Shown: positions 301 to 22,138 of the stretch, in pieces
How positions within the stretch are numbered: the stretch's first letter is position 1
How the letters are laid out: each line of letters opens with the position of its first letter
Translations under genes and position numbers: made by a program
Notes under the pieces: generated by a model
What the model saw: the letters and a program-made list of their open reading frames with translations, nothing else
What the model was told of the DNA's origin: nothing
The model's database searches: none
Origin: an uncultured Clostridium sp.
GTDB lineage: Bacteria > Bacillota > Clostridia > Lachnospirales > Lachnospiraceae
DNA length: 33,041 bases
Assembly (NCBI GenBank): GCA_900541315.1
Contig: UQJF01000015.1
Span: forward strand, 1-33,041
Direction: 5' to 3'

Positions 301-336
301 CATAAAATCAGGCACAGAAAGATTTCGGGAGAACAT
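301..336 (+). repeat. Copy of dispersed repeat (GAYTCCGGGAGNACAT core)
   Basis: Positions 304-336 match 22106-22138 over 33 nt with a single mismatch. The core GATTTCGGGAGAACAT is at 321-336. This copy has no plus-strand gene after it and runs into the stop codon of the minus-strand araC-like gene. The preceding 225-300 holds nothing else I recognise apart from a small CAGTT/AACTG hairpin. Confidence 0.75.
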
Positions 337-1241
337 TATTTATGAAAGGGTGTGCCGGCAAACAGATTCCTGTATTTTAAAGGTGAAAGGCCATAAGTTC
401 CCTTGAATTGTTCAATAAAATAGCTGATCTGATTATATCCTACATCAGCACTGATCTCAGTTATCGGCTTTTTTGTGTTCAAGATCAGGTTTTTTGCCAT
501 ATAAAGCCTGTACTTGTTCAGGTATTTAATAGGGGACAGCCGGGTGTATTTGCGGAACAGATCTGTACAGCGGTTTTTATTGATGATCCCGTAAGCAGCG
601 ATCTGGCGGACAGTTAAAGGATCCTGGTAATGGTTGTGGACGAAACTTAACAGGGACTGGAACAATTCCATTTCTTCCTCGTCATTCTGCTCCGGTTTTT
701 CATCAAAGGAGCGGATCAGTTCCTCAAATATCCGGGATAGAAAGTTGATAACGGAAAAATATCCCAAAGGTTCACCGGTCTGATCTAAAAGGCTTTCCAA
801 AATGTCTATCTGTTCCGGGTTTAAAAGCTGGATGGAACTGGTGAAACTTTCATTTTCCAGAAAAGGACGGATATAGTGCTTTAAGATCATGGGATGAAAA
901 ATATCAGGGGAAAAGTTGATGCACAGAGAACAGGCATCTTTTCCAGTGGTCCGGGAACTGTGAAACTGGTGGTCTTTTACCAGAAGAATCTTATCCCCGG
1001 ACAGCCGGAGAGAATCACCGTTAATGCAATATTCCAGCTCTCCCTGGAAAACCCAGTTTAACTGCAGTTCATTATGCCAGTGGAAGGGGGTTGAATCCCT
1101 GGCTGCATGATGATAGGTCTGTGTGAAAATGGAAATAGGAAAGTCTTCCGACAGATAATTGACTTTTTCCTGCAGGTCATTGGTGGTGGAAATGACAAAT
1201 TCAGTTCCGGCCTGATTGCATTTTGGAAAGGAAACATTCAT
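336..1241 (-). CDS. AraC family transcriptional regulator
   Basis: A 301-residue regulator of the usual AraC/XylS length. The N-terminal half is a cupin-like sensing domain (FHWHNELQLNWVFQGELEY near residue 55, followed by a loop ending in DHQFHS). The last ~100 residues carry the two helix-turn-helix motifs, with LTVRQIAAYGIINKNRCTDLF as the first and ITEISADVGYNQISYFIEQFK as the second, followed by the typical GLSPLKYR. AAGGAG lies 11 nt upstream of the ATG. It is transcribed away from the M20 amidohydrolase gene, so it may regulate that divergent gene (inference). The effector cannot be read from the sequence. A possible diverged copy of the dispersed repeat core lies in its leader at 1269-1284. 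Confidence 0.9.
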   Translation of the reverse strand: MNVSFPKCNQAGTEFVISTTNDLQEKVNYLSEDFPISIFTQTYHHAARDSTPFHWHNELQLNWVFQGELEYCINGDSLRLSGDKILLVKDHQFHSSRTTGKDACSLCINFSPDIFHPMILKHYIRPFLENESFTSSIQLLNPEQIDILESLLDQTGEPLGYFSVINFLSRIFEELIRSFDEKPEQNDEEEMELFQSLLSFVHNHYQDPLTVRQIAAYGIINKNRCTDLFRKYTRLSPIKYLNKYRLYMAKNLILNTKKPITEISADVGYNQISYFIEQFKGTYGLSPLKYRNLFAGTPFHK

Positions 1242-1268
1242 AAAGTATTATTCTCCTTTTTTGTAGTG

Positions 1269-1284
1269 ATATCCTCTCAGGGTC
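1269..1284 (-). repeat. Possible diverged dispersed repeat core in araC-like leader
   Basis: On the minus strand the 16-mer GACCCTGAGAGGATAT matches the copy at 21936-21951 at 13 of 16 positions and is preceded by AGAAAA, as in other copies. It ends 27 nt before the start codon, close to the spacing seen for three other genes. Confidence 0.45.
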
Positions 1285-1467
1285 TTTTCTGATATAAATT
1301 ATCCCAAGTATACCACTTTTCTATGTTTTCCGGAATGGAAACAGCAATAATATGGTACAAATGTGATATAATCTGTTCTATTAATGATAGAAACATGGAG
1401 ACCATGTGACTATACTGGGGATAAAGACCGGACAGAGCATTGCCGGTAATATAAGGAGGATATGATA

Positions 1468-2694
1468 ATGGTATCTGTAAATGGCGAAAGATTATTGTCA
1501 AGGATCAATGAACTGGGAAAAATTGGAAAAGACGCAGAAGGAAGAAGAACAAGACTGGCTGCTTCTGATGCAGATAAACAGGGCAGAGACCTGGTTTCTG
1601 AATGGATGAAGGAAGCTGGCCTGGAGGTAGTGACGGACCGGATTGGAAATATTTTCGGTATCTGGGAGACACCTGAAAACAAGGATCAGGCACCTCTTAT
1701 GATAGGTTCCCATATTGATACTGTTATTAATGCAGGACAGTTTGACGGGTGTCTGGGAGTCATCTCCAGTATTGAAGTGATCAAAACATTAAAGGATAAT
1801 GGAATGGTTTCAGCAAGACCTGTTGTTGCAGCTGCATTTACCAATGAAGAAGGTGTCAGATATTCACCGGATATGATGGGTTCCCTGGTTTATGCAGGAG
1901 GCATGGAGGTGGAAGAGGCTCTGGACACAGTAGGGACTGACGGTACTATTTTACGGGATGAATTAAAGCGCATTGGATATGAAGGAACGGTAGAACCTGG
2001 ATTTATTAAGCCATATGCATTTGTTGAGCTGCATATTGAACAGGGACCGATCCTTGATCATGAGGGCATCCGCATTGGTGCAGTAGAGAACCTTCAGGGG
2101 ATCCACTGGCAGAGAGTGACGATTGAAGGTGCTGCAAACCATGCAGGAACCACACCAACTGCATTAAGACATGATGCAGGACTGGCAGCAGCAAAGGTAA
2201 TTGTATTCTTAAGACAATTAGTGGAAAAATCAGGAGGCGTTGCCACAGTAGGCTGCATTGAATTGAAGCCTAATGCTATTAACGTTATCCCATCTAAAGC
2301 AGTATTTACCGTTGACCTGAGAAACCCGGACAAAGAAAAGCTGGATAATGATGAAAAGATCCTGTCTGAATACTTAAAAAATCTGGCAAAAGAAGATGAT
2401 GTCAGGATTTCTGCAGAACGTATGACGGAATTCGATCCGGTTCCATTTGACAAAGAAATTGTAGAAAAGGTGGAAAAGGCAGCTAAAGCCCACGGTTTAA
2501 GTGTAAAACGCATTACTTCCGGTGCCGGTCAGGATGCCCAGATGCTCGCAAGGCTCTGTCCAACAGCCATGATCTTTGTTCCAAGCGTTAAAGGCATCAG
2601 TCATAATCCGGAGGAATATACAAAGGATGAGGATGTACTGGCAGGTGCAGATGTATTTTTAGATGTTGTAATGGACATGGTGCAGGTGAAATGA
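1468..2694 (+). CDS. M20 family metallohydrolase (N-carbamoyl-amino-acid hydrolase / allantoate amidohydrolase type)
   Basis: A 408-residue dinuclear-metal amidohydrolase. The family's metal ligands are visible: H82 in GSHIDTV, D93 in FDGCLGV, E127/E128 in NEEG, H189 in HIEQGP and H379 in SHNPEEYT. This set is typical of N-carbamoyl-L-amino-acid hydrolases and allantoate amidohydrolases, which cleave a carbamoyl or ureido C-N bond in the cytoplasm. The exact substrate is not determinable here. An ATG at 1462 sits only 2 nt after AAGGAGG, so the ATG at 1468 with 8-nt spacing is preferred. A TATAAT at 1367-1372 may be its -10 box; no good -35 is seen. The CobW-like gene follows after 70 nt and may be co-transcribed. 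Confidence 0.9.
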   Translation: MVSVNGERLLSRINELGKIGKDAEGRRTRLAASDADKQGRDLVSEWMKEAGLEVVTDRIGNIFGIWETPENKDQAPLMIGSHIDTVINAGQFDGCLGVISSIEVIKTLKDNGMVSARPVVAAAFTNEEGVRYSPDMMGSLVYAGGMEVEEALDTVGTDGTILRDELKRIGYEGTVEPGFIKPYAFVELHIEQGPILDHEGIRIGAVENLQGIHWQRVTIEGAANHAGTTPTALRHDAGLAAAKVIVFLRQLVEKSGGVATVGCIELKPNAINVIPSKAVFTVDLRNPDKEKLDNDEKILSEYLKNLAKEDDVRISAERMTEFDPVPFDKEIVEKVEKAAKAHGLSVKRITSGAGQDAQMLARLCPTAMIFVPSVKGISHNPEEYTKDEDVLAGADVFLDVVMDMVQVK

Positions 2695-2725
2695 TATAAT
2701 TTGGGCAGCTAAAAAGAGCCTGGGA

Positions 2726-2741
2726 GACTCCGGGAGTACAT
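2726..2741 (+). repeat. Dispersed repeat core in CobW-like leader
   Basis: GACTCCGGGAGTACAT matches the core of the dispersed repeat. It ends 23 nt before the start codon at 2765, with AAGGAG in between. The longer AAAATCAGGCACAG flank found in other copies is absent. Confidence 0.6.
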
Positions 2742-2764
2742 AAAAGGCAAAAGGAGTGAGAGAT

Positions 2765-3742
2765 ATGATAAAGATCGATCTGATCACTGGATTTTTAGGT
2801 GCCGGAAAGACAACCTTTATAAAAAAGTATGCTTCTTATCTGATGAAACAGGGCAGAAAGATCGGAATACTGGAAAATGATTTTGGGGCAGTTAATGTGG
2901 ATATGCTTCTTTTACAGGACCTGGAAGGGGATAATTGCAGTCTGGAAATGATCGCAGGAGGCTGTGATGCAGACTGCCACAGACGCCGTTTTAAGACAAA
3001 GTTGATCGCAATGGCTATGTCCGGTTACGACCGGGTGATCATAGAGCCATCTGGTATTTATGATGTAGACGAATTTTTTGATGCTCTTTATGAGGAGCCA
3101 CTGGATCGTTTCTATGAACCGGGAAATGTGATAGCACTGGTAGATGCGGGGCTGGAAGAAGACCTTTCAAAAGAGGCGAAATATCTGCTGGCGACTGAAG
3201 TGGCAGATGCAGGCTGTGTCCTTTTCAGTAAGTGTGATGAAGTGCCGGAAAAGCAGCTAAAGGCAACTCTTTCTTATCTGAACCAGGCCCTGGAGCAGGT
3301 ACACTGTAAACGCAGATTTACCCTGGATCAGATTCTGTGTAAAAGCTGGGAAGATCTGGATGAGGCTGATCACAAACGTCTGCTGACCTGCGGATACCGT
3401 ATGGAAGATTATGAAAAAATGCCTCTGGAACAGAGTAAGGTATTTGAATCATTATATTACCTGAATTTCTCCATGGACCCTAAGAAGCTGGAAACAGCAG
3501 TAAAAAAGATGTTTCAAGATCCTGCCTGCGGCAAGATTTTCCGTATTAAAGGCTATATGAAGAATGGCAGGAAAGATGAAACGGAAAACTCTCAGGAAAG
3601 CGGCTGGCTGGAACTGAATGCTACTGTTAAAGAATTTAGCTTAAAATCAGTGCCAAAGGGCCAGGAAGTTCTGATCGTGATCGGTGAAAAGCTTTCAAAA
3701 GAGAGAGCAGCCCTTTATTTAGGCCGGAACCCCGATGTTTAA
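2765..3742 (+). CDS. CobW/G3E family GTPase
   Basis: A 325-residue P-loop GTPase of the G3E (CobW/HypB/UreG) class, whose members act as metallochaperones or metal-insertion factors. The Walker A GFLGAGKTT is near the N-terminus, the EPSG switch segment follows a Walker B-like DRVII, and SKCDE stands for the NKxD guanine-recognition motif. The CxCC metal-binding motif of zinc-type COG0523 proteins is replaced by GGCDADCHRR, with two spaced cysteines, so the metal may differ (inference). A GTG at 2756 overlaps the AAGGAG ribosome site, so the ATG at 2765, 8 nt downstream of it, is the credible start. It follows the M20 hydrolase closely on the same strand. Confidence 0.85.
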   Translation: MIKIDLITGFLGAGKTTFIKKYASYLMKQGRKIGILENDFGAVNVDMLLLQDLEGDNCSLEMIAGGCDADCHRRRFKTKLIAMAMSGYDRVIIEPSGIYDVDEFFDALYEEPLDRFYEPGNVIALVDAGLEEDLSKEAKYLLATEVADAGCVLFSKCDEVPEKQLKATLSYLNQALEQVHCKRRFTLDQILCKSWEDLDEADHKRLLTCGYRMEDYEKMPLEQSKVFESLYYLNFSMDPKKLETAVKKMFQDPACGKIFRIKGYMKNGRKDETENSQESGWLELNATVKEFSLKSVPKGQEVLIVIGEKLSKERAALYLGRNPDV

Positions 3743-3764
3743 GCCTGTTTTAAGCAAAAAACAG

Positions 3765-3793
3765 TTTACAAAAAGAACAGTACAGGTTATAAT
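3765..3793 (+). promoter_or_regulatory. Near-consensus promoter upstream of a short terminated transcript
   Basis: TTTACA (3765-3770) and TATAAT (3788-3793) are spaced by 17 nt. A strong terminator lies about 60 nt downstream, before the next gene begins, so this promoter makes either a small RNA or an attenuated leader. Confidence 0.65.
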
Positions 3794-3799
3794 ATTTCC

Positions 3800-3896
3800 C
3801 GTTGGACAAGGACAGATATGGCAGAGCCGCAGATGCTCTGTGCATAAATAAAATAAGCTGATGGATTCTGTGAAACAGATGACATCAGCTTTTTTA
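3800..3896 (+). ncRNA. Candidate small RNA or attenuated leader (~95 nt)
   Basis: The span between the promoter at 3765-3793 and the terminator at 3855-3896 contains a further hairpin, GCAGAGC at 3820-3826 with GCTCTGTGC at 3834-3842. It codes for nothing obvious. It does not have the fluoride aptamer's 5' half, although its terminator shares AAGCTGATG with the riboswitch at the window start. Its role is unknown; it could regulate the transglutaminase-like gene by attenuation. Confidence 0.4.
3855..3896 (+). terminator. Intrinsic terminator before the transglutaminase-like gene
   Basis: AAGCTGATG (3855-3863) and CATCAGCTT (3883-3891) form a perfect 9-bp stem followed by a T-run to 3895. Confidence 0.8.
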
Positions 3897-3955
3897 CTGC
3901 CATGCATATGGCGAATGCATCAGTGATGTGTTCGCTGAACGTGAAAGGAATAAAT

Positions 3956-4981
3956 ATGGAACCATATTACTATACAAAGATGAGTAAGCCAAAGCAGGCT
4001 GTTTACCATGCTATTTATCAGGGACTTATGGCGCTTTCAGACAGCTTCCAGGTGCCAAAGCTGGAAGGAAGAGAATTAAGTGATGTATTTTTCCAGCTGC
4101 GCTTAGATCATCCGGAGATATTCTGGGCAGAAGGCTTTCATTACCGGTATTACCAGGACTCAGCGAATATTACTTTTCTGCCGGAGTATATTTTTGAAAA
4201 AGGAAAGATAAAAGAACATCAGAAAGCATTAAAAGCCAGAGTAGAAAAGCTGGCACGGCCTGCAATGAAGCTTTCAGAGTGGGAAAAAGAAAAGTATGTA
4301 CACGATTTCATCTGTGAAAATATTCATTATGATAAATTAAAAAAATCCTATTCCCATGAGATCATAGGCCCTTTGGGACAAGGAGTAGGGGTATGTGAAG
4401 GCATTGCCAAGTCTGTAAAAGTGCTTTGTGATGCATTAGGTATCTGGTGCATGATTGCAATTTGCGGAAATAACCCGGAAAAAGGAATTAAATATCGTCA
4501 TACCTGGAATATTGTAAAGATTAACGGTACTTATTATCATCTGGATGCTACTTTTGACAATACTTTAGGTAAGCATAGCTTTGATGCCAAGGAGATCCGT
4601 TATGATTACTTTAACCTGGATGATAAAAATATTTTCCGCGATCATGAGCCATTGATCGCACCGGCACCGGTTTGTACGGATGGGGATCATTTTTACTACA
4701 AAGAAAAGAAAGTGTCCTTTACAAAGACAGAAGATGTGTATAAACGTTCCCTTCAGGCTGCAAAAAAGGGAAAAATGCTTACCTTCCACTGGAGAGGCGG
4801 TTATCTTACAAGGGCAGTTCTGGATGAGCTGTTAGATCTGATCAAAAAGGCGGGAGAAGAAAAGGGCAAGACCGCCCGTATTGCGTTAAACTGGCCGCAG
4901 GCTGTGCTGCGCCTGGAATATGTAGAAGATGGGCAGGAAAAGGTGACTCTGGAAGAGGCAAACGAAGGAGAGCAGGAGTGA
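3956..4981 (+). CDS. Transglutaminase-like (papain-fold) protein
   Basis: A 341-residue cytoplasmic protein with a bacterial transglutaminase-like core. The Cys-His-Asp triad is visible as C147 in GVGVCEGIAKS, H182 in YRHTWNIV and D197 in YHLDATFD. Such proteins are thiol hydrolases or crosslinking enzymes; the substrate is unknown. There is no signal peptide. An in-frame ATG at 3902 lies just after the terminator and lacks a ribosome site. The ATG at 3956 has GAAAGGA upstream and starts a natural MEPYYY N-terminus. The stop codon overlaps the GTG start of the next gene by 4 nt, so the two are translationally coupled and probably work together. Confidence 0.8.
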   Translation: MEPYYYTKMSKPKQAVYHAIYQGLMALSDSFQVPKLEGRELSDVFFQLRLDHPEIFWAEGFHYRYYQDSANITFLPEYIFEKGKIKEHQKALKARVEKLARPAMKLSEWEKEKYVHDFICENIHYDKLKKSYSHEIIGPLGQGVGVCEGIAKSVKVLCDALGIWCMIAICGNNPEKGIKYRHTWNIVKINGTYYHLDATFDNTLGKHSFDAKEIRYDYFNLDDKNIFRDHEPLIAPAPVCTDGDHFYYKEKKVSFTKTEDVYKRSLQAAKKGKMLTFHWRGGYLTRAVLDELLDLIKKAGEEKGKTARIALNWPQAVLRLEYVEDGQEKVTLEEANEGEQE

Positions 4982-5979
4982 GATTAGATTGTGGAGGAAT
5001 GGAATTTGAAAAGCTGGCAGACCTGTTGGAGCTGGGACAGTTTGAACTGATCGGTCTGCCGGAAGGGGAAGCAGGGAAAATACCTTCCGATATCCGCCTG
5101 GTGTATATGATGAATGATACAGCGGAAAGCTTTCTGGTATTCCATGAGGCAGTCATGACGGGTACCTATCTGCCGGAGTATGAAGGAGAGTTAAGAGCGG
5201 CATTAGATAGAGAAGAAAGTGACCGGTCAGGAAAAAATGAGCAGGAAGGTGGCCGCTATATCCTGGCAGTTCATCAGGGAGATACAGTCTGCACATTATT
5301 CTTCAAAAAGATCACACTGGAATGTGAACTGTATGACTATGGCCATATCGGACATTTTTGGGTAAAAGACTATGAATATCTCCGCCAGTTAGAATACAAG
5401 ATCGCTATTTTGGGAGATAAATGGGAATATCTGGGAGAAACATGCTGCAGTGAGGAAGAAAAACAGCTGGCACTTTTAAGGGGATTTCCGCCTTTAAGCT
5501 ATCTTTTTTATCCGGCAGCCTCTTTAGCTTATGTAAGAGAAAAAGAAGAACCATGGAAGCTTTCTGCCCAGGCAGCAGAGTTAGTGGAAGAAGCGGCAAA
5601 GCAGGTGGGGGATAGCTGGTTTGCAAAAATGGTAGCTTTATATAAAAGATACCCTCTAAGGGTACTGGCCAGATATATTGCCTGGATGTTTCACAGGACT
5701 TCCCACAGGAAAGTGACAGATAGACTGATAGAACAGATAGATGAGGCAGCAGCCTGCTATCCAAGGCGGCATTTTGGAGAAGAACAGGAAAAACACCATA
5801 CAGATCTGTTAAAAAGGGCCAAAATGAGAAAAAAGGAACTGGAAGAGCAGGGAATACAGGCTAAGATATACCGGGAAGAGCCATTTATGGTGGGAGATGA
5901 TACACCATTTAAGATATATGTGATGAAATTTAAAACAAAAAATGGAAACCGGACATCACAGATAGAGGAAATTCGGTGA
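4978..5979 (+). CDS. Uncharacterised protein, possibly DUF3878 family
   Basis: A 333-residue soluble protein with no membrane segment and no catalytic motif I recognise. The length and composition recall a Firmicute protein family of unknown function (DUF3878), but I name it only tentatively. The GTG start at 4978 overlaps the previous stop codon (GTGA) and has AAGGAG 7 nt upstream. A later ATG at 4999 has GGAGG only 1 nt away and is less likely. The C-terminal third is rich in Arg, Lys and Glu and probably helical. Its coupling to the transglutaminase-like gene is the only clue to function. Confidence 0.6.
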   Translation: MRLDCGGMEFEKLADLLELGQFELIGLPEGEAGKIPSDIRLVYMMNDTAESFLVFHEAVMTGTYLPEYEGELRAALDREESDRSGKNEQEGGRYILAVHQGDTVCTLFFKKITLECELYDYGHIGHFWVKDYEYLRQLEYKIAILGDKWEYLGETCCSEEEKQLALLRGFPPLSYLFYPAASLAYVREKEEPWKLSAQAAELVEEAAKQVGDSWFAKMVALYKRYPLRVLARYIAWMFHRTSHRKVTDRLIEQIDEAAACYPRRHFGEEQEKHHTDLLKRAKMRKKELEEQGIQAKIYREEPFMVGDDTPFKIYVMKFKTKNGNRTSQIEEIR

Positions 5980-6025
5980 TCCCGGCATTTTGTGATGCAG
6001 ACATTTTTGCAAAAAGGTTTCGATG

Positions 6026-6065
6026 GATAAAAACAGATAAGAACAGATAAAAACTGATAAGAACA
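6026..6065. repeat. 20-bp tandem repeat, two copies
   Basis: GATAAAAACAGATAAGAACA at 6026-6045 is followed directly by GATAAAAACTGATAAGAACA at 6046-6065, one mismatch, just before the shared terminator. Confidence 0.8.
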
Positions 6066-6095
6066 GCAGAGGAAGTTCACCCCTCTGCTGTTTTT
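6062..6095 (+). terminator. Intrinsic terminator between convergent genes
   Basis: AACAGCAGAGG (6062-6072) pairs with CCTCTGCTGTT (6082-6092), followed by Ts. The stop codon of the minus-strand RelA/SpoT gene (6077-6079) lies in the loop. In the minus direction the T-run is weaker. Confidence 0.8.
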
Positions 6096-7330
6096 GTATC
6101 TAATAATGCTGTAAGTTTTTCCTTCAGGGTTTTTGCTTCTTCCCCCTGCTCCCTGATGTAAGAGGCATCCGGTATCTCAATATCATGGATCAGGGAATTG
6201 CGCATTTTTCGCAAAAAGGCGATCTGGTTGATACATTCCTTATCCAGTACGTCTAAACGTTTTAAGGCATTGATATTAAACACACTTACAGACCGGGAAC
6301 TGCGCTTGGTCACACGGTTTAGCAGGTTTTCAAGAGGTACCCACTGGGTAAAGAAATAGTTGATCGCTTCCTGATGCTCTGTACTTAAATTGGAATCATC
6401 AGAGTGCAGCTTCTGGTATGCCTGGTATTTCTTTTCATTTCCACTGATGATCTGGTCAATGATCTGCTGGGAAATGGTACGCTTATCTTTTTCAAATTTT
6501 ACGGACTTTACAATGGGACCGATATCCTTAGCACGTAATATCTTCAAACTGCTTAAAAAACGGAACAGCAGTTCAATATTTCCCATACGAAGCTTAATAT
6601 CTTCCGGAAGGAAGTTGTTGCTTAAATAATTGTATAAATAAGATGCAAGCTCAAACTGGTTGGCAAAGGTAGCCTGGCTGTTCTGGATCCTTTCATTTCC
6701 GGCGGCCTGGAGACGTTCTAAGGCAATCTCACCGGTAAGCACCAGTCCGTTTAATTCGTCTAAAATAGCTAACTCTTCTTCAGAAAGTGTTCCCTGCATA
6801 GGCTTGTAGATCAGGTCATGTTCCACCTCGGACCATGCATGCATCAGAACGGAAGCTACCTGGATCTCTATTTTTGCGGCGCAGTATCGTTTTTCTGAAG
6901 GCTGTACCATATCTTCTTTCAGGTGGATACGATAATGATTGGCCCAGTAACCGGAAAAACGTTTATTGTAGGTAGGCGGCTTTGACTGCTCCGGGAACTG
7001 TTTGCGTTCAATAATCTGGAACAGGTCGCTGATCAGGGAATCTACCTTTACACGGTCTCCGGGGAAGTAAAGGGAAACACGGATTCCGCACAGATCTGCA
7101 ATATCTTCATAAATTTCCTTCATGTTTTTATAGGGAATGCTCCGTTTGGCATTTCTGCGCAGCACCTTGCTTTTTAAACGTCCCGGATTTTTGATCCTGT
7201 AAGTGACCATGGCACGGATACCGGCAGACTGTAAGGCATCTTCTAACTGGGAAGAAGAGATACGTCCAAGATTTTCATAAAAAGTAAGCTTCTTTTTATA
7301 GTTTTCGATAAATTGATTGATTAAATCCAT
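6077..7330 (-). CDS. RelA/SpoT-domain protein with C-terminal HEPN-like RNxxxH motif
   Basis: A 417-residue protein. Residues ~35-180 match a (p)ppGpp synthetase-type nucleotidyltransferase: TYRIKNPGRLKSK near 43-55, a DIAxxxGIRV-like segment at 76-85, YWANHYRIHL for the usual GYRSLHL, and an IEIQ...EVEHDLIYK segment at 154-176 with the conserved Glu-His pair E170/H171. The QxRT motif is replaced by QVAS. The middle is helical. Near the C-terminus, LRKMRNSLIHD contains R377-N-S-L-I-H382, the Rx4-6H signature of HEPN ribonucleases. There is no TGS or ACT domain, so this is not a long Rel. AAGGAGG lies upstream of the ATG. It could be an alarmone synthetase, a toxSAS-like toxin or a two-activity conflict protein (inference). 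Confidence 0.75.
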   Translation of the reverse strand: MDLINQFIENYKKKLTFYENLGRISSSQLEDALQSAGIRAMVTYRIKNPGRLKSKVLRRNAKRSIPYKNMKEIYEDIADLCGIRVSLYFPGDRVKVDSLISDLFQIIERKQFPEQSKPPTYNKRFSGYWANHYRIHLKEDMVQPSEKRYCAAKIEIQVASVLMHAWSEVEHDLIYKPMQGTLSEEELAILDELNGLVLTGEIALERLQAAGNERIQNSQATFANQFELASYLYNYLSNNFLPEDIKLRMGNIELLFRFLSSLKILRAKDIGPIVKSVKFEKDKRTISQQIIDQIISGNEKKYQAYQKLHSDDSNLSTEHQEAINYFFTQWVPLENLLNRVTKRSSRSVSVFNINALKRLDVLDKECINQIAFLRKMRNSLIHDIEIPDASYIREQGEEAKTLKEKLTALLDTKTAEG

Positions 7331-7352
7331 AGAGTTCCTCCTTTACAGTACG

Positions 7353-7410
7353 ATGTTCTCCCGGAGTCTTTCTGCATCTTTTTTGCAAGAAATATTTTCA
7401 CAAAATCAGG
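7353..7410 (-). repeat. Dispersed repeat, inverted pair (second arm truncated)
   Basis: On the minus strand GACTCCGGGAGAACAT (7353-7368) is preceded by AAGATGCAGAAA, a full copy of the core and flank. A partial copy in the opposite orientation, TTTTCACAAAATCAGG, follows on the plus strand at 7395-7410. The minus-strand core ends 22 nt before the start codon of the RelA/SpoT gene. Confidence 0.7.
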
Positions 7411-7602
7411 ATTATTGTCATTATAGACTATCATAACACAAGACAGTAAGGTCTGCAAGAAAGAGCACATCATGAATATAGTATCTGTTAGTATCCGTGT
7501 AAAAGTAGTATTGAAAAATGTTGCGGTCCATAAGCTGCATGACCGGTAATGCTGGGAAAATGTGTAAGCAGCCTAATGAGAAAAAATATGCAGGCAGCCC
7601 AC

Positions 7603-7632
7603 TTGACAGTATACCCTGGTGGGGTATACAAT
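7603..7632 (+). promoter_or_regulatory. csoR-copA promoter
   Basis: TTGACA at 7603-7608, with TATACA at 7625-7630 (16-nt spacer) or TACAAT at 7627-7632 (18-nt spacer). The CsoR operator fills the spacer and overlaps the -10, so a bound repressor would block polymerase. Confidence 0.75.
7609..7629. promoter_or_regulatory. CsoR-type copper operator
   Basis: GTATACCC-TGGTG-GGGTATAC is a perfect 8-bp inverted repeat around 5 nt, the GC-rich-centred form known for CsoR operators, placed between -35 and -10 of the copper operon. Confidence 0.85.
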
Positions 7633-7687
7633 GCATATATTCCCAGTGAAAAGGTGGGGAAAATAAAAGGGAAAGACAGGAAGGTTT

Positions 7688-14738: not shown

Positions 14739-14804
14739 AAAGATACCCCAAAGTTCATTCTTGATTTAATATACGCAGAAAATGGAAAAATGTTTGCAGC
14801 GGTT

Positions 14805-16304
14805 TTACTGCTGTGCTGCAGTTGTTTCGTTAGCAGGTGTTTCATTCTGCGTCTGTCCGTAATTCCAGGTGACCGGAGTAGGACGGGATGTGTCAAAGAT
14901 CTGGGAAGAGTCAAATAAGTCACTTAAGCGCTTCTTTGCAGGATCTTCCTGGATCATATCTTCATACAGGCGGTATCCGTCTAAGTTTCTTCTTGCCATA
15001 CGCAGGTAATCATGTCCCATCTGGATCCAGGCCGGCTTGCTGGCATCCACATTGCAGAAATAGCGGAAGCCCTTGGAAGCAAGGTACTGGTAACGGTAAT
15101 TTTCCTCTGTATAAGGGTGCCAGTCTGCAATGTCGTTTCCATTTGGATAAATGTAAATATCTGTAGGTCCGATAAGGGATTCTACTTCATTTTCCCATTT
15201 ATCGGTATCTGTATAGAAACGCTCATCGCTGATTTTGTAAGGCTTTTCAGGGTTTCCGGAAACGCCCATCCATAAATGCCCCCAGCTATGGCTTGCCAGT
15301 TCCCAGCCGTCATCCCGCAGACACTGTGCTACTTTAGCAGCCTGTTCCCGTTCCCTTTCATAATCCGGGCTTTCGCTGTAGGAAGAAGCAGTGCGGTAGC
15401 CAAAGATGCCCTCATAACCAGTAAGGGCGATAATAGCTTTGGCTCCTTTATAGGAGAAATCCGGATGTTCATCAATAAAGTCATTTAAAATCGGAACCAG
15501 ATCATAAGAGCCGGCAGAAACTGTTCCGTCCTCCATTTTCATTTCACAGGAAGGCCGTCCGTCCTCACCAATGATGATCTTGCTTGCAAAGCCATCTCCG
15601 TCCATATATGGGTAGTAGCACACATCATCCTGGGACATGACAATAGGCTTCTTTCCTTCCGGAAGCATGATATTTCCCCAGGTGAATACAGGATTTCCAT
15701 TTTCATCGCTGGTTTCATAGGCAATATCATGGATGCGCACCAGAACGTAGCCGTCATTGTAAAGGGCATCTAAGATCTTTAAAAATTCATCTTTTGTGGT
15801 CATAACGGAGTTATATCCCCCTGAACGGGAATCTCCATCAAAAGCTTTTGCTGTATCCATGATCAGAGAGTGGAAAAATACATGGGTCACATTTTTTACA
15901 TCAGCTGGAACCAGGGCATCCTTTTCAGACTGATAAGTGGAAACTGCTTCCTCTATACGGGAGTCAGCTGCAAGAGAAGCATCCTGCTGCAAAAGTTCCA
16001 TGGCCTTGTCATAATCGTATCCTTTGGCCAGACGATCTGCCTGTGCGATCAATGTGTCAATGGGATCTGGTTCTTGTGCAGTGGAAGGCTTGTCCTTATC
16101 TGGTTTGCGGTTTGCCTCAGAGGCAGTGGCCGAAGCTGGCAATGATCCGGGCTTCTGTTTTAAAACAAAGTGCGAAAAGGCAAAAATACCGCCCCCAAGC
16201 AGAAGGGCGATGACTAAAAGTAATATAAAGGTAGGAAGGTGACGGGACAGGCGGAAGAAAAATCCTCTGTGGTTGCGCTGCTTCCGGAAATTTAAATTGC
16301 TCAT
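14805..16304 (-). CDS. Membrane-anchored polysaccharide deacetylase
   Basis: A 499-residue protein with a basic N-terminus and one transmembrane segment (residues ~24-47), then a Pro/Ser/Ala/Lys-rich linker and an extracellular NodB-type (CE4) domain. The metal and catalytic motifs appear as SQDD at 224-227 (D226, D227) and HSWGH at 339-343. Such enzymes remove acetyl groups from cell-wall or surface polysaccharides. The domain is long, with insertions, resembling Firmicute wall-associated variants. AGGAG lies 7 nt upstream of the ATG. The C-terminal tail is rich in Thr, Asn and Gln. Confidence 0.85.
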   Translation of the reverse strand: MSNLNFRKQRNHRGFFFRLSRHLPTFILLLVIALLLGGGIFAFSHFVLKQKPGSLPASATASEANRKPDKDKPSTAQEPDPIDTLIAQADRLAKGYDYDKAMELLQQDASLAADSRIEEAVSTYQSEKDALVPADVKNVTHVFFHSLIMDTAKAFDGDSRSGGYNSVMTTKDEFLKILDALYNDGYVLVRIHDIAYETSDENGNPVFTWGNIMLPEGKKPIVMSQDDVCYYPYMDGDGFASKIIIGEDGRPSCEMKMEDGTVSAGSYDLVPILNDFIDEHPDFSYKGAKAIIALTGYEGIFGYRTASSYSESPDYEREREQAAKVAQCLRDDGWELASHSWGHLWMGVSGNPEKPYKISDERFYTDTDKWENEVESLIGPTDIYIYPNGNDIADWHPYTEENYRYQYLASKGFRYFCNVDASKPAWIQMGHDYLRMARRNLDGYRLYEDMIQEDPAKKRLSDLFDSSQIFDTSRPTPVTWNYGQTQNETPANETTAAQQ

Positions 16305-16382
16305 AAAATACTCCTATGATGTTTGTTTATAAAGAGTATAACATAAAACAGACTATCTGAGTATATCATAACCTGCTTTTTG

Positions 16383-16411
16383 TTGATTTTTTAATACCAG
16401 AGTGGTATTCT
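16383..16411 (+). promoter_or_regulatory. HIT gene promoter with embedded inverted repeat
   Basis: TTGATT (16383-16388) and TATTCT (16406-16411) are 17 nt apart. A perfect inverted repeat AATACCA-GAG-TGGTATT (16393-16409) lies in the spacer and reaches into the -10, the position of a repressor operator. Confidence 0.55.
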
Positions 16412-16451
16412 AAAAATGAATTAAATCTAACAGAATGTGAGGTTCTAAAAA

Positions 16452-16892
16452 ATGGGAGAAATGGTTAAAGATCCAAATTGCGCATATTGTGTAGAGGGAG
16501 AACTGTTAGCTAAGTTTGGTTATCCATGCTGCGAGATGAAAACAGGCAAGCTGTATGTGTTCAAGGAGCAGAGCAAAAGAGGAAGAGTGATCTTAGCTCA
16601 TAAAAAACATGTCAGCGAATTGATCGAACTGACTGATGAAGAGAGAAATGATTATTTTGCAGATGTTGCAAAGGTTGCAAGAGCTATTCACAAAGTATTC
16701 AATCCGGATAAGGTAAACTATGGCGCATACGGTGATACCGGACATCATTTACATTTCCACATCGTTCCTAAATACAAAGGCGGCGAAGAATGGGGCAGCA
16801 CATTTGAGATGAACAGCGGTAGGACTATTCTTACAGATGCAGAGTATGAAGAGATGGCAGAGGCTATCCGCCAGGCATTAAAGGAAGTTTAA
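16452..16892 (+). CDS. HIT family nucleotide hydrolase
   Basis: A 146-residue protein of the histidine triad superfamily. The triad is H99, H101, H103 in GHHLHFHIVPK. These enzymes hydrolyse nucleoside phosphoramidates or dinucleoside polyphosphates in the cytoplasm. An N-terminal CAYC and a CC pair could bind zinc, as in some HIT proteins. The ribosome site before 16452 is weak (TGAGG); an ATG at 16461 is an alternative start. It has its own promoter and terminator, so it is a single-gene unit. Confidence 0.9.
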   Translation: MGEMVKDPNCAYCVEGELLAKFGYPCCEMKTGKLYVFKEQSKRGRVILAHKKHVSELIELTDEERNDYFADVAKVARAIHKVFNPDKVNYGAYGDTGHHLHFHIVPKYKGGEEWGSTFEMNSGRTILTDAEYEEMAEAIRQALKEV

Positions 16893-16941
16893 AAGATAGT
16901 TAGTAAGAAGTTTATAAAATTATAAAAAGTCAGAAATAAGG

Positions 16942-16978
16942 CTGTTTTCAGTGCGAAAATACTGGAGACAGTTTTTTT
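16942..16978 (+). terminator. Terminator of the HIT gene
   Basis: CTGTTTTCAGT (16942-16952) pairs with ACTGGAGACAG (16961-16971), with G-U pairs, followed by seven Ts. Confidence 0.85.
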
Positions 16979-17052
16979 ATTGCCATAAATCAGAGTTTTC
17001 TTCATATTTTATAAAGAAGAAAAGACGCGGTGCAGCTGTAAAAGAGGAATGT

Positions 17053-18306
17053 ATGGCAAAGAATTGGAAAAAGAGAAAACTTTGCAGGTGGATGGGGCTA
17101 TGCCTGACAGTATGTATTCTGGTAATAAGCAGCCTGTATACAGTCTGTGGTGCAGAACCTGTAATACCGGTATCAGTGCCTGTAAACACAAATATCCAGG
17201 CGGTTTGTGTTCATGCACCGTCCGCTATTTTAATGGAAGCATCTACAGGTAAGATATTATTTGAAAAAGAGGCAGATGAAAAACGCAGTCCGGCCAGTGT
17301 GACTAAGATAATGACCCTTCTTCTGATCTTTGATGCCCTAAAAGATGGAAAGATAAAAATGACAGATCAGGTGACTACAAGTGCCTATGCAAAATCCATG
17401 GGCGGTTCCCAGGTGTTTTTGGAAGAAGGAGAAGTACAGACAGTAGAAACACTGATCAAATGTATTGTGATCGCCTCTGGAAATGATGCTTCGGTGGCTA
17501 TGGCAGAGTATATTTCAGGGACAGAAGAGGCCTTTGTGGATGCTATGAATAAGAGGGCAGAAGGCCTGGGGATGATGAACACCCATTTTACAGACTGCTG
17601 CGGGCTGACAGAGGATCCGGATCATCTGACTACGGCAAGGGATATTGCCATTATGAGCCGGGAGCTGATCAACTGTTACCCGGAAATACATAATTATTCT
17701 ACTATCTGGATGGAAAATATCACGCATGTGACCCGCCAGGGAACCAAGGAATTCGGTCTTGCAAATACCAATAAATTATTGAAAATGGCAGTAGATTTTC
17801 AGGTTACAGGCTTAAAAACCGGTTCTACTTCCAGGGCAAAATACTGTCTTTCTGCCACAGCGCAAAAAGACGGAGTCCGCCTTATCGCAGTGATCATGGC
17901 AGCACCGGACTACAAGGCACGTTTTTCTGACGCCAGAAATCTTTTAAGCTTCGGCTATGCCACCTGCAGGCTCTATGAGGATAAAGAAAAACTGCCTCTT
18001 CCACAAATGTCTGTTGCAGGAGGAGTAAAGGATCTGGTGCCACTGCAGGCAGAAGGAACATTTTCCTGGCTTAGCACAGAAGGAGAAGACCTGGGAAAGA
18101 TCGAAAAAAAGCTGGAGCTGGCAGAAAAGCTGGAAGCCCCGGTAGCACCGGGAACCCGCGCCGGTGTGATCGCCTATTATTTTAACGGGGAAAAGCTGGG
18201 AGAGCTTCCTGTTACGGCTGCAGAAGCAGTAGAACGGGCGGGATATAGGGATCATTTGCAGAAGGTTTTTAAAAGCTGGATCAGTATTCGCCGGACAGCT
18301 GCATAA
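17053..18306 (+). CDS. D-alanyl-D-alanine carboxypeptidase (DacF/S11 type)
   Basis: A 417-residue secreted penicillin-binding protein that trims the terminal D-Ala from peptidoglycan stem peptides. A signal peptide covers residues ~1-35 (KKRK, then a hydrophobic run ending VCGA). The active-site motifs are SVTK at 82-85, SGN at 142-144 and KTG at 255-257. The C-terminal domain and the final amphipathic stretch (LQKVFKSWISIRR) fit membrane attachment typical of S11 enzymes. An in-frame GTG at 16951 lies inside the preceding terminator; the ATG at 17053 with AGAGGA upstream directly precedes the signal peptide and is the real start. Confidence 0.92.
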   Translation: MAKNWKKRKLCRWMGLCLTVCILVISSLYTVCGAEPVIPVSVPVNTNIQAVCVHAPSAILMEASTGKILFEKEADEKRSPASVTKIMTLLLIFDALKDGKIKMTDQVTTSAYAKSMGGSQVFLEEGEVQTVETLIKCIVIASGNDASVAMAEYISGTEEAFVDAMNKRAEGLGMMNTHFTDCCGLTEDPDHLTTARDIAIMSRELINCYPEIHNYSTIWMENITHVTRQGTKEFGLANTNKLLKMAVDFQVTGLKTGSTSRAKYCLSATAQKDGVRLIAVIMAAPDYKARFSDARNLLSFGYATCRLYEDKEKLPLPQMSVAGGVKDLVPLQAEGTFSWLSTEGEDLGKIEKKLELAEKLEAPVAPGTRAGVIAYYFNGEKLGELPVTAAEAVERAGYRDHLQKVFKSWISIRRTAA

Positions 18307-18344
18307 AGATACTGTTAAAATGCAGAAAATACCAGGCAATTGAT

Positions 18345-18374
18345 TTGACGGAATGTTTTCTTCACAGATATAAT
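18345..18374 (+). promoter_or_regulatory. Promoter of the antiporter gene
   Basis: TTGACG (18345-18350) and TATAAT (18369-18374) with an 18-nt spacer. Confidence 0.65.
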
Positions 18375-18405
18375 ACCTTTCATAATGTATTAGTATTTCG
18401 AAAAT

Positions 18406-18421
18406 GATGTACTAGTACATC
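18406..18421. promoter_or_regulatory. Perfect 16-bp palindrome in the antiporter leader
   Basis: GATGTACTAGTACATC is fully self-complementary. It lies between the promoter and the ribosome site of the antiporter gene, about 20 nt before the ATG, and could be an operator or an RNA hairpin. Confidence 0.5.
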
Positions 18422-18440
18422 CGGGAGAAAGGGGAAAGCT

Positions 18441-20030
18441 ATGAACCAGATTTTACTGCTTACAGGAATTGTGATCGTGATCTGCATCCTGTCAGGCCGC
18501 CTGATCGACAAAATGGGAGTCCCATCCCTGCTTGCATTTATTCTTTTGGGAATGTGTTTTGGTGTAGATGGGATTTTTAAGATTTCTTTTGATGATTACC
18601 AGTTCAGCGAGCTGATCTGTTCTGTCAGCCTGATCTTTATTATGTTTTATGGTGGTTTTGGAACTAATATCAAAGAGGCAAAGCCAGTTGTATCAAGAGC
18701 GGTACTGCTTTCCAGTGCAGGAGTTCTTCTAACAGCCGGGATCACGGGAATTTTTATCCATCTGGTGTTAAAACTTCCTCTGCTTGAAAGTTTTCTGGTG
18801 GCATCAGTGATCGGCTCTACAGATGCGGCATCTGTATTTAACATCCTTCGTTCCAAAAACCTGAACCTGAAGGAAAATACAGCCTCCTTGCTGGAAATGG
18901 AGTCTGGTTCCAATGACCCGGTCTCTTATATGCTGACAGTGATCCTCACAGCAGTTCTTACGGGACAGTCTGTAAATATAGGATCCATGCTGTTTTTTCA
19001 GGTGTTTTTCGGTATTGGCTGCGGTGTGCTGTTTGGAAAATCCACAGCAGTTGTTTTAAACCAGGTGGATTTTGACATTGCCCAGGGAAAGACCATACTG
19101 GTATTTGCAGCAGCCATACTGGCCTATACGGTGCCTTCCATGATCGGTGGCAACGGATATTTAAGTGTGTATCTGTGCGGTATTATCCTGGGAAATTCCT
19201 ATCTCCCCCATAAACGGGATATGGTGCTGTTTTTTGATGTACTCACAGGTGTGGCCCAGATGATGATCTTTTTCCTGCTGGGACTTCTGGTAACTCCCAG
19301 TGAGCTGCCTCAGGTGATACTTCCCTCTCTGGTGATCATGATCTTCCTTACTTTTGTAGGCCGTCCGGTGTCTGTGGCAGCGCTTTTAGCTGGTTTCAGA
19401 TCCTCAAAAGGCCAGATTGGTCTGGTATCATGGGCCGGGCTGCGTGGCGTTGCCTCCATTGTATTTGCTATCTATGTAGTCCTGCGCCAGGTCCATCTGG
19501 GATATAATCTTTTTAATCTGGTATTTTGTATTGTATTGTTGTCTATTTCCATTCAGGGAACGCTGCTTCCATGGATATCGGCAAAATTTCAGATGATTGA
19601 TGAAAATGCAGATGTGCGTCGTACTTTTAATGATTATCAGGAGGAAGAAAGTATCAGCTTCGTAAAATTTCATCTCTATGGGCAGCATCCTTATGTGGGA
19701 AAATGTCTAAAGGAGATCACATTGCCCCCTAAGCTTCTGGTGGTACTGCTGATCCGTGGAAAAGAAGTGCTGGTTCCCAATGGGGATACCTGTCTGAAAG
19801 CCGGTGATCTGATGATCGCGGCAGCAGAGGAGTTTGAGGACCGGAAAAATATGACTCTCAGAGAGATCACTGTGGATAAAAATCATAAATGGAGCGGAAA
19901 AGCTTTAAGCCGTATTTCCATGCAGGCTGGAACGCTGATCGTTATGGTAAGGAGAGGAAAAGAAACGGTGATACCTACGGGAAATACTGTGGTATATGAA
20001 GGGGATGTGCTGGTACAGGTAAAATTTTGA
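18441..20030 (+). CDS. K+(Na+)/H+ antiporter, CPA1 type, with C-terminal RCK/TrkA_C-like domains
   Basis: A 529-residue cation/proton antiporter resembling NhaP2/CvrA. Residues ~1-385 form about a dozen transmembrane helices, with the functional motifs GSTDAASVF and ESGSNDPVSYM. The C-terminal ~130 residues contain two TrkA_C-like modules (segments ending CLKAGDLMIAAA and VVYEGDVLVQVKF), which by family knowledge can sense ligands and gate transport. AAAGGGG precedes the ATG. Its original terminator is split by the insertion sequence downstream. Confidence 0.88.
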   Translation: MNQILLLTGIVIVICILSGRLIDKMGVPSLLAFILLGMCFGVDGIFKISFDDYQFSELICSVSLIFIMFYGGFGTNIKEAKPVVSRAVLLSSAGVLLTAGITGIFIHLVLKLPLLESFLVASVIGSTDAASVFNILRSKNLNLKENTASLLEMESGSNDPVSYMLTVILTAVLTGQSVNIGSMLFFQVFFGIGCGVLFGKSTAVVLNQVDFDIAQGKTILVFAAAILAYTVPSMIGGNGYLSVYLCGIILGNSYLPHKRDMVLFFDVLTGVAQMMIFFLLGLLVTPSELPQVILPSLVIMIFLTFVGRPVSVAALLAGFRSSKGQIGLVSWAGLRGVASIVFAIYVVLRQVHLGYNLFNLVFCIVLLSISIQGTLLPWISAKFQMIDENADVRRTFNDYQEEESISFVKFHLYGQHPYVGKCLKEITLPPKLLVVLLIRGKEVLVPNGDTCLKAGDLMIAAAEEFEDRKNMTLREITVDKNHKWSGKALSRISMQAGTLIVMVRRGKETVIPTGNTVVYEGDVLVQVKF

Positions 20031-20034
20031 CAAA

Positions 20035-20055
20035 AGTTACAGTTCAACTGTAACT
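20035..20055. repeat. Inverted repeat after the antiporter gene
   Basis: AGTTACAGTT-C-AACTGTAACT is a perfect 10-bp inverted repeat right after the antiporter stop codon. It has no T-run on the plus strand, so it is not a terminator by itself. It abuts the split terminator. Confidence 0.6.
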
Positions 20056-20070
20056 GAAAAAAAGAGCAGG

Positions 20071-20078
20071 CCGATTGA
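20071..20078. repeat. Target site duplication, left copy
   Basis: CCGATTGA directly before the left inverted repeat; the identical right copy is at 21678-21685. Eight bp fits an IS4-family transposition event. Confidence 0.85.
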
Positions 20079-20109
20079 CCAATGTCATTAAGTTAATATG
20101 ACAAATCAA

Positions 20110-20147
20110 GATCTCAGTATTAGAAAATAATACTGGGGTCTTTTTTT
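20110..20147 (+). terminator. Terminator inside the left end of the insertion sequence
   Basis: GATCTCAGTATTA (20110-20122) pairs with TAATACTGGGGTC (20128-20140), followed by seven Ts. It stops transcription entering from the antiporter gene and now substitutes for that gene's disrupted terminator. Confidence 0.85.
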
Positions 20148-20179
20148 ATCAAAAGCTTGACAGGAACACAAAAATGTGT

Positions 20180-20224
20180 GGCCGCTCTCGCTACTGATTA
20201 TATTTAGAAGTTGCGAGAGCGGCC
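20180..20224 (+). promoter_or_regulatory. Strong hairpin before the transposase ribosome site
   Basis: GGCCGCTCTCGC (20180-20191) and GCGAGAGCGGCC (20213-20224) are perfect 12-nt complements with a 21-nt loop. It ends 26 nt before AAGGAGG (20251-20257) and may limit transposase translation or read-through. Confidence 0.6.
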
Positions 20225-20261
20225 CTTGTAATTAAGTAAATCTTGATTACAAGGAGGTCAC

Positions 20262-21530
20262 GTTTCAGATAGAGCAGATGAATTCTGTCTTAATCCTGGT
20301 AAGTGCTTCGTTAGAAAACGCAAACTATCATTTGAGACAGTTATACGAGGCATTATAGGGATGGAAAGTAAAAGCTTAACAAATGAACTAATCGATATGT
20401 TTGATTCATCACCTGAAATGCCTTCAGCATCTGCCTTTGTACAGCAACGAAGTAAAATTGAACCAGATGCATTTAAAACTATTTTTGAAAGTTTCACCTC
20501 AAAAATCACTACTAAAAAATCTGATACGCTTCGTATCCTTGCAGTTGATGGCTCAGATGTTCAAATAGCTACGAATCCTGGCGATTCCACTTCCTATCAT
20601 CCAGGAAGTAATGGACAAAAACCGTATAATCTCTTACATTTAAATGCTTTGTATGATTTAGAACATCATATTTATACAGATGCCGTTATTCAAGGTCGCT
20701 TGAATTGGAATGAACATTCCGCACTTCAGGAAATGGTTGATAAATCAGATATTTCAAAGGCACTTGTTGTTGCTGATAGAGGTTATGAGTCATATAACAA
20801 CATGGCACATATCCAAGAAAAAGGATGGTATTTTTTAATACGAATCAAGGATGGGAAAAATGGAATAAAGCAAGGCTTGGACTTACCTGATAGTGATGAA
20901 TTTGACGAAAAAATAAACTTGCAATTAACACGAAAACAGACAAAAGAAACGAAAGAATTATTCAAAAGAAAAAATTACTATAAATTCGTACCAAGTACTA
21001 CTTCCTTTGAGTATCTTCCTCTGAAATCAAAGAAAAATGATCCAGCAGTTTTTTACGAACTTAATTTCAGAATTGTTCGCTTCAAGGTGACAGATGAACT
21101 CTATGAAACAGTACTTACAAATTTAGATAAGGATGTATACCCACCTGAAAAACTAAGAGAATTGTATGCATCACGATGGGGGATTGAAACATCTTTTAGA
21201 GATTTAAAATATACTGTAGGAATGTTAGATTTTCATTCCAAAAAGGTGATGTGTATCCATCAAGAAATATACGCACATCTAATTATGTATAACTTTGCAG
21301 AAATGATTACCTCGCACATAATCATTAAAAAGAAGCAAAGAAAATATACATATAAAGCCAATTTTTCGATTGCAGCTCACATGTGCAGATTATTCTATAG
21401 AGGAAAAGCCACATCACCCAATTTAGAAACCATTATAGCAAGACATATCATTCCTGTAAGGAATGATAGACATCGTAAAAGAAATCTTACGATCAAAGTC
21501 TTTCATGGTTTCCTATATAGAATAGCATAA
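20262..21530 (+). CDS. IS4-family transposase
   Basis: A DDE transposase. Counting from the first ATG at 20361, D63 (LAVDGSDV), D139 (VVADRGYES) and E276 form the catalytic triad, and YASRWGIETSFRDLK fits the IS4 Y-(2)-R-(3)-E-(6)-K signature exactly. The frame stays open upstream to 20247 and encodes DEFCLNPGKCFVRKRKLSFE, which reads like the normal N-terminus of this family. A perfect AAGGAGG (20251-20257) precedes it, yet no ATG, GTG or TTG exists there; a GTT at 20262 is at the right distance. The true start is therefore unclear: a rare codon, a lost start, or initiation at 20361 giving 389 residues. Confidence 0.85.
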   Translation, partial: VSDRADEFCLNPGKCFVRKRKLSFETVIRGIIGMESKSLTNELIDMFDSSPEMPSASAFVQQRSKIEPDAFKTIFESFTSKITTKKSDTLRILAVDGSDVQIATNPGDSTSYHPGSNGQKPYNLLHLNALYDLEHHIYTDAVIQGRLNWNEHSALQEMVDKSDISKALVVADRGYESYNNMAHIQEKGWYFLIRIKDGKNGIKQGLDLPDSDEFDEKINLQLTRKQTKETKELFKRKNYYKFVPSTTSFEYLPLKSKKNDPAVFYELNFRIVRFKVTDELYETVLTNLDKDVYPPEKLRELYASRWGIETSFRDLKYTVGMLDFHSKKVMCIHQEIYAHLIMYNFAEMITSHIIIKKKQRKYTYKANFSIAAHMCRLFYRGKATSPNLETIIARHIIPVRNDRHRKRNLTIKVFHGFLYRIA

Positions 21531-21596
21531 ATTTACAAAAATGGAATCATTTTTTAGGCAGATGTAAATCTGTCTAATTAGCATGCTTAAAAATGC

Positions 21597-21640
21597 AAAA
21601 TGGCAGGAAAGTACAAAACTCTCCTACCATTTTATTTTTG
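21597..21640 (+). terminator. Terminator at the right end of the insertion sequence
   Basis: AAAATGGCAGGA (21597-21608) pairs with TCCTACCATTTT (21622-21633), one mismatch, and leads into ATTTTTG. A smaller hairpin AGGCAGAT/ATCTGTCT lies at about 21556-21575. Confidence 0.75.
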
Positions 21641-21719
21641 AGTCAACTATTATACAATGTTAACTTAATGACATTGGCCGATTGACTTGCTCTTTTTTTC
21701 ATGTTATCCTATAAGAACC

Positions 21720-21757
21720 AGCAGAGAGGTCTCTCTGCTCTATCTGATTTTTTATTT
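21720..21757 (+). terminator. Terminator-like hairpin in the gene-free stretch
   Basis: AGCAGAGAG-GT-CTCTCTGCT (21720-21739) is a perfect inverted repeat followed within about ten nt by a T-rich run. It may be a second terminator of the antiporter unit. The rest of 21758-21898 shows nothing I can interpret. Confidence 0.4.
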
Positions 21758-21898
21758 CTATATTTTATGAATGGCCAGTTCGGCCTTAGGTTTCACAAAA
21801 TTATGTTTCAAAATGGAAAATGTAAAAGTGAGGTGATGTCACTGTCAGGCAACATGTCTGTTTTTAAAAGTGCAAGAGTGCAAAGTAAACATTATTAA

Positions 21899-22138
21899 AT
21901 GTATTTTCGGAGTCTTATTCCGGGAGAAAATCAATATGTCCTCTCGGAGTCTTTCCTGCACTTGTCTTTGCGGCCGATTTTCCGCCAGTTGCACCCGAAT
22001 TTCAGAGGCGGACGCAACGCCAACGCCTCTGAAATTTGGGCACAATTGACAACAAATCTTTTCGCAAAATCAAGTACAAAAAGATTCCGAGAGTACATTT
22101 TTCACAAAATCAGGCACAGAAAGATTCCGGGAGAACAT
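21899..22138. repeat. Composite dispersed repeat with a 163-bp imperfect palindrome
   Basis: Arms 21936-22010 and 22024-22098 are about 75-nt inverted copies (roughly three quarters identical by eye) around a 13-nt loop. The innermost 13 bp, AATTTCAGAGGCG and its complement, are perfect. Each arm ends in the repeat core (reverse at 21936-21951, forward GATTCCGAGAGTACAT at 22083-22098). A second forward copy ends in GATTCCGGGAGAACAT at 22123-22138, and partial copies lie at 21899-21933. The last core ends 25 nt before the aldo-keto reductase start. Short open frames over this region are by-products of the palindrome, not genes. Confidence 0.8.

Follow-up and report, generated by a model that had tools for sequence, protein, structure and literature searches.

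A Foldback Element of Lachnospiraceae That Probably Inserts Next to Shine-Dalgarno Motifs

Results and Discussion

A Repeat That Marks the Ends of a Small Transposable Element

The window analyzed here is a stretch of 33,041 nucleotides (nt) from an uncultured Clostridium sp. of the Lachnospiraceae (contig UQJF01000015.1), in which a 16-mer, GAYTCCGRGAGNACAT, recurs before several unrelated genes. The 16-mer forms the inverted termini of a foldback transposable element found in Lachnospiraceae, which is non-autonomous and resembles miniature inverted-repeat transposable elements (MITEs). Very probably, the element is mobilized in trans and its insertion is directed at GGAGG DNA, the core of the Shine-Dalgarno (SD) sequence.

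With up to three mismatches allowed, the 16-mer was matched 10 times in the window, against 1.93 matches expected and a maximum of 5 in 100 shuffles. All seven positions listed in the original prediction were present on rescanning. Exact copies start at 2726, 7353(-), 21936(-), 22083, and 22123; the copy at 321 has one mismatch and that at 1269(-) has three. Degenerate copies with two mismatches each were added at 21899(-) and 21916(+), and a three-mismatch match also occurs at 23926. The distances from core to start codon, given earlier as 27, 23, 22, and 25 nt, proved correct, but the value for the araC-like gene is measured from the diverged copy at 1269 and not from an exact one. Two features had gone unnoticed. 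The cores at 21936(-) and 22083(+) are the outward-facing ends of a single element of 163 base pairs (bp), and what stays more nearly constant is how far the SD core lies from the element's end, with GGAG starting at +12 or +13, rather than how far away the start codon lies.

MITEs have been described as strongly folding elements with inverted terminal repeats, flanked by target duplications and presumably mobilized in trans (PMC3049150). The present element has 16-bp inverted ends, ATGTACTC and GAGTACAT, arranged in outward-facing pairs at repeated spacings. Ninety-one deduplicated pairs were collected from eight genomes together with three readings from the window (genomes and loci are cited below by handles beginning with G and L). 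The commonest lengths were 161-165 bp (38 pairs), the long form ATGTACTCTCGGARTC...GAYTCCGAGAGTACAT, and 57 bp (15 pairs). The element is too small to hold a transposase gene: 88 of the 91 span 43-165 bp and three readings come out longer, at 196-240 bp, while the shortest forms, judged by eye, are about 31 bp. An exact 4-bp target duplication flanks 55 of the 91 pairs, compared with a shuffled mean of 2.95 and maximum of 7, and the signal is maximal at length 4 and at exactly these ends. The sister genome G416 is element-free at locus L128 of G337 and has a single AGAT there, with the SD of the neighboring gene intact (CCTCC, the SD complement); the two genomes are 88% identical on one flank and 78% on the other. 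These duplications, the empty site, and the paired outward-facing ends bear out the earlier suggestion of a mobile cassette in 5' untranslated regions.

At three sites the same insertion was found at unequal lengths: L143 (77 bp) against L357 (163 bp) and L119 (48 bp) against L360 (163 bp), for G337 and G416, respectively, and L131 (163 bp) against L363 (140 bp). The length of the element therefore changes in place.

Partial copies were also seen in G190. At L147, L173, and L203, roughly the terminal 10-16 bp of one end are lost and host sequence follows an internal AAGGGAG/GGAG, which at L147 resembles, by eye, an SD belonging to the gene that follows. At L156, L196, L198, L160, and L205 only half of an element is present, the break lying close to the central hairpin; the first three keep GGAGG near the expected distance from the surviving end.

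The Element Is Locked to GGAGG

Positions were analyzed in 87 elements, the 91 pairs minus the three from the window and one duplicate reading (196 bp, L185). The set holds all exact copies from G337 and G190 and, for G241 (10 of 21 copies) and the smaller genomes, the listed places only. The SD side of an element was defined as the end with the better SD-like match in nt 6-22. Counted from this facing end, GGAG starts at +12 in 50 elements, at +11 in 13, at +13 in 8, and at +14 in 2; no other position, examined to about +42, has more than one start. The ungapped columns +12 to +16, corresponding to GGAGG, carry 0.65-1.57 bits. Judged by column information, 40 upstream and 32 downstream columns showed no promoter-like signal, and the 40 columns upstream of the left end are all at or below 0.23 bits.

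The standard deviation of position was 0.64 nt for the SD core (n = 69), a value on the low side since the motif nearest +12 within 6-19 was taken (the +12 histogram involves no such choice), versus 2.84 nt for the start codon (n = 72, including two outliers). The spacing from GGAGG to start codon has a standard deviation of 1.57. In keeping with the original prediction, copies in the relatives examined are not placed at random with respect to start codons, and 72 of the 87 precede a gene start. Eight of the remaining 15 still show the motif, either as GGAGG or GGAG at +12/+13 or else as GAGG at +13, and at L217, L209, L169, and L140, none of which precedes a gene start, the motif reads by eye as the 5' arm of a terminator-like hairpin. 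Among forms of at least 115 bp with a motif, orientation is mixed: one arm faces it in 25 cases and the other in 19, with 4 unclear. The lock is to GGAGG rather than to the start codon, and apparently not to a promoter.

Further copies were then compared with this rule. Fourteen loci from G416 gave 13 pairs. In 10 of these, one side and one only has GGAGG or GGAG starting at +11 to +13, and 6 show a 4-bp duplication; these loci were read after the rule was known and four match G337 element loci on both flanks, making them a partly independent set. A second set of 32 copies comprised 17 one-mismatch copies from G337 and 15 loci of other genomes and one viral contig; these 15 were chosen by eye when their flanks had already been seen, and loci judged to be chance were excluded. 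The L370(+) row was dropped as a repeat of L177, and L089 and L247, each listed in two rows, were counted once. GGAGG or GGAG occurs at +11 to +13 on one side in 22 of the 32, and a script found any of GGAGG, GGAG, GGGG, GGGT, or GGGA there in 26. Rereading the left ends of the misses by eye recovered GGGG at +11 (L106), GGGAGG at +13 (L237), and GGAGG at +12 (L375), leaving L238, L376, and L380.

The Foldback Is Conserved

The long form is predicted to fold as a single hairpin (z score -11.1). The short form folds moderately (z score -2.35; 5 of 200 shuffles were equally good). The SD lies outside the predicted element hairpin; in the minimum-energy structures of both forms it pairs weakly, over 3 bp, with bases close by, and in that of the composite element of the window it falls within a small downstream hairpin. 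Of the 71 pairs of the G337 structure, 55 are kept in G018, 70 in G190, and 67 in G195, whereas slid-register controls keep 25-34; pairs changed on both sides number 12, 9, and 6, respectively, in what are pairwise comparisons with the one reference, G337, controlled by slid registers only. The kept and doubly changed pairs indicate that the predicted foldback is maintained, for transposition or as RNA.

Target Choice and Its Alternatives

The 4-bp duplication leads us to propose a DDE-type transposase, in preference to a Y1 (HUH) enzyme such as the RAYT partner of REP/BIME repeats, acting in trans and making the 4-bp staggered cut whose traces are the duplications and the one empty site. On the positional statistics, the insertion point would be set by GGAGG or GGAG with its first G 12 (11-13) nt from the facing end, about 7 nt past the duplicated 4 bp. 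Because GGAGG is the SD core, most insertions would land in 5' leaders just before the ribosome-binding site, in either orientation, with SD and start codon kept, as is seen in the copies. From the position and the predicted folding, the messenger RNA (mRNA) would carry a hairpin ending 11 nt before the SD. Shorter forms would arise, at least in part, by internal deletion or rearrangement in place, as the same-site copies of unequal length suggest, and the targeting may have evolved because the gene is spared.

Transposition might instead be untargeted, with only those insertions surviving that fall in the short gap between promoter and SD. The preponderance of copies before gene starts (72 of 87), where promoter and coding sequence are both spared, would be expected on this account. 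Survival alone, however, would not yield a spike of 50 of 87 at +12 with neighbors of at most 13, nor would it explain why 8 of the 15 copies that precede no gene have GGAG or GAGG at +12/+13, and no fixed distance appears in the promoter-side columns; we regard it as unlikely. The spike, the smaller spread around the SD than around the start codon, the copies without genes, and the mixed orientation argue for a choice of target by sequence, beyond the survival of harmless insertions. It is also conceivable that the element is kept as a regulatory leader, its hairpin selected for mRNA stability or translation control and its position set by that function. The z score of the long form and the conserved foldback, with pairs changed on both sides in all three comparisons, are what such a role would predict. 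Yet the distance is kept in copies without genes, the downstream genes have nothing in common, the element faces either way and differs in length at one and the same site, and both loci tested are empty in G416, so that this explanation seems quite improbable as the origin of the pattern; later co-option of the element as a regulatory leader may occur. As for a shared regulator or transcription-start motif with no mobile element, which the original prediction had also offered, the fixed position before several unrelated genes of the window first spoke for it. It is not needed and fits poorly. It is contradicted by the empty site, as well as by the target duplications, paired inverted ends, and nested copies; mixed orientation, the lack of an element-locked promoter-like signal, and gene-less copies that keep the GGAG/GAGG distance, some before terminator-like hairpins, add to this, and we give it almost no credence.

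Insertion directed at GGAGG has points against it as well. The low number of GGAG starts at the opposite end (three in total in the 87 elements) follows partly by construction from the way the SD side was chosen, although the +12 peak does not. Among the 15 copies that precede no gene, the chosen side has none of the listed motifs in five (L200, L108, L125, L177, and L181), and three of the 13 G416 pairs depart from the GGAGG/GGAG rule (L355, L360, and L367). An empty site with both flanks known comes from the one locus, L128; G416 also lacks the element at a second locus, where divergence of the downstream flank hides any sign of a duplication. The case for target choice is built on insertions that survived and not on insertion events observed directly. 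The loci read for five transposase families do not carry these ends (PF01609 and PF00665 in eight genomes; PF13701, PF13612, and PF13546 in six; not every match came with its locus or flanks), and Mutator-type enzymes were not searched for. Finally, no target duplication is visible in the window copies, which are decayed; since single copies there also have no recognizable second end, the window seems to hold old copies.

On balance, it is likely that the target-choosing machinery reads the SD core as DNA and thereby places the element between promoter and ribosome-binding site. Perhaps the target is a mimic of the element's terminal sequence, which in its GGAGTC form has GGAG 11-14 nt inward; a bolder possibility is that insertion is coupled to translation, through its machinery or the anti-SD RNA. 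If this is correct, an SD-homing element finds a tolerable landing place before very many genes, and the hairpins seeded into 5' leaders would readily provide gut bacteria with new regulation. A sharp prediction is GGAGG at +12 of fresh insertions. No description was found of such a target preference, and the element could lead to the transposase responsible for it.

Comparison with Known Elements

Correia and RUP elements insert at TA. IS701 and other insertion sequences generate 4-bp duplications, the length found here, and the IS701-like (PF13546) loci that were read lack these ends; TnGBS, ISLre2, and the ISKra4 group make longer duplications.

By form, the pneumococcal RUP, BOX, and SPRITE repeats and the neisserial Correia elements (NEMIS) are the nearest, sharing short repeats and MITE traits. 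Correia elements have 26-bp inverted repeats and pneumococcal repeats are over-represented between convergent genes (PMC3049150), whereas the present element stands at a fixed distance before SD motifs. TnGBS, ISLre2, and the ISKra4 group, with Mutator-like DDE transposases, are described as inserting 15-17 bp upstream of the -35 box of sigma-A promoters (PMC3942029). There the signal is a promoter and the transposases are known; here it is the SD. Where the two inverted repeats of an ISKra4-group member are nearly identical, the signal is predicted on both sides (PMC3942029), comparable to the mixed orientation seen here. Neither SD-directed insertion nor bacterial MITEs near ribosome sites was described among the matches listed from the open-licence literature, and the sequence GACTCCGAGAGTACAT occurs in no paper of that literature searched.

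Distribution

Relatives of the CobW-like gene provided the route to whole genomes. Three of 20 such genomes have exact cores: Falcatimonas sp. MSJ-15 (G018) with six, Fusicatenibacter saccharivorans (G020) also with six, and one other with one. An exact core is present in 30 of 397 genomes of the family of G020, where the reversed pattern, used as a control, matched 3 times; cores are most numerous in G190 (50), G337 (47 exact, 85 with up to one mismatch), and G241 (21). After reading of the loci, 15 of the 30 were judged to carry real elements (G018, G020, G034, G121, G178, G190, G195, G241, G244, G281, G299, G301, G337, G381, and G411), a split that partly used the presence of an SD and is not independent of the SD rule. 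The other 15 were set aside as chance matches by eye, having no partner end and no neighboring SD (open reading frames, ORFs, were not checked); six of them have in common one coding-like stretch, which we take to be polynucleotide phosphorylase. When 391 genomes drawn from the whole class were scanned with a slightly narrower pattern, G020 alone matched. With so few core-bearing genomes in the family and only G020 in this draw, the distribution looks patchy, and the genomes surveyed gave no sign of the element outside the family.

Scans of GTDB contigs for an exact 22-mer and of viral contigs for a 21-mer gave no matches. Two 16-mers matched 1 and 7 stretches of viral contigs, of which only L247 resembles a real element. 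The 163-bp element matched no plasmid; it matched two fecal "phage" scaffolds without annotation. L247 (an IMG/VR contig) and MT838758.1, both filed as viral, carry a full-length and a near full-length copy.

Candidates for an Autonomous Element

A 1.32-kb pair at L234 (G299) was rejected as an autonomous element, with no transposase visible inside. At L393, a 13/16 match beside an IS701-like gene was dismissed as chance since it falls within an ORF that belongs to a different insertion sequence. No kilobase-scale element was present among all 85 copies read in G337 (up to one mismatch), and none was seen by eye in the 13-mer match list of G190, a genome in many contigs. In the window, 45-nt inverted arms, 87% complementary, enclose an IS4-family transposase ORF (20361-21530) in a unit at 20055-21701 that ends 197 bp before the composite element; the arms are unlike the element's ends.

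Copies and Other Features of the Window

Of eight window copies tested, five have a G-motif at +12/+13 (Table 1). The ends at 21899, 21936, and 22083, inside or on the far side of the composite, have none.

Table 1. Element-derived features of the window
Feature	Position	Strand	Remarks
Composite (nested or tandem) element upstream of aldo-keto reductase gene	21899..22138	.	Four cores; folds strongly (z score -8.5); left end ATGTATTTTCGGAGTC, right end GATTCCGGGAGAACAT
163-bp long-form element within composite, both inverted ends and central hairpin	21936..22098	.	Length and end arrangement match copies in relatives
Right-end core facing aldo-keto reductase gene (start 22164)	22123..22138	+	GGAGG from +12
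GGAGG (SD) of aldo-keto reductase gene, putative target motif	22150..22154	+	
End core of decayed or truncated element, facing RelA/SpoT-like gene (6077-7330, minus)	7353..7368	-	GGAGG from +12 (7341-7337, minus)
End core facing CobW-like gene	2726..2741	+	GGAG from +12 (2753-2756); second end not recognized
Diverged end core (3 mismatches) facing araC-like gene (336-1241, minus)	1269..1284	-	GGAG from +13 (1256-1253, minus)
End core (1 mismatch) at 3' end of araC-like gene, arm sequence upstream	321..336	+	GGGT (weak form) from +12; second end not recognized

Rfam covariance models gave no family for the repeat at the gathering threshold in the window. Their sole match was a fluoride riboswitch at 121-197 (+), with 47.8 bits against a gathering score of 34. 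Positions 3847-3873, upstream of an ORF at 3902, show 85% identity over 27 nt to the riboswitch region 167-193 and received no Rfam call. Just past the ORF at 4978-5979, overlapping direct repeats with 10-nt spacing (GATAAAAACA-like) occupy positions 6026-6065.

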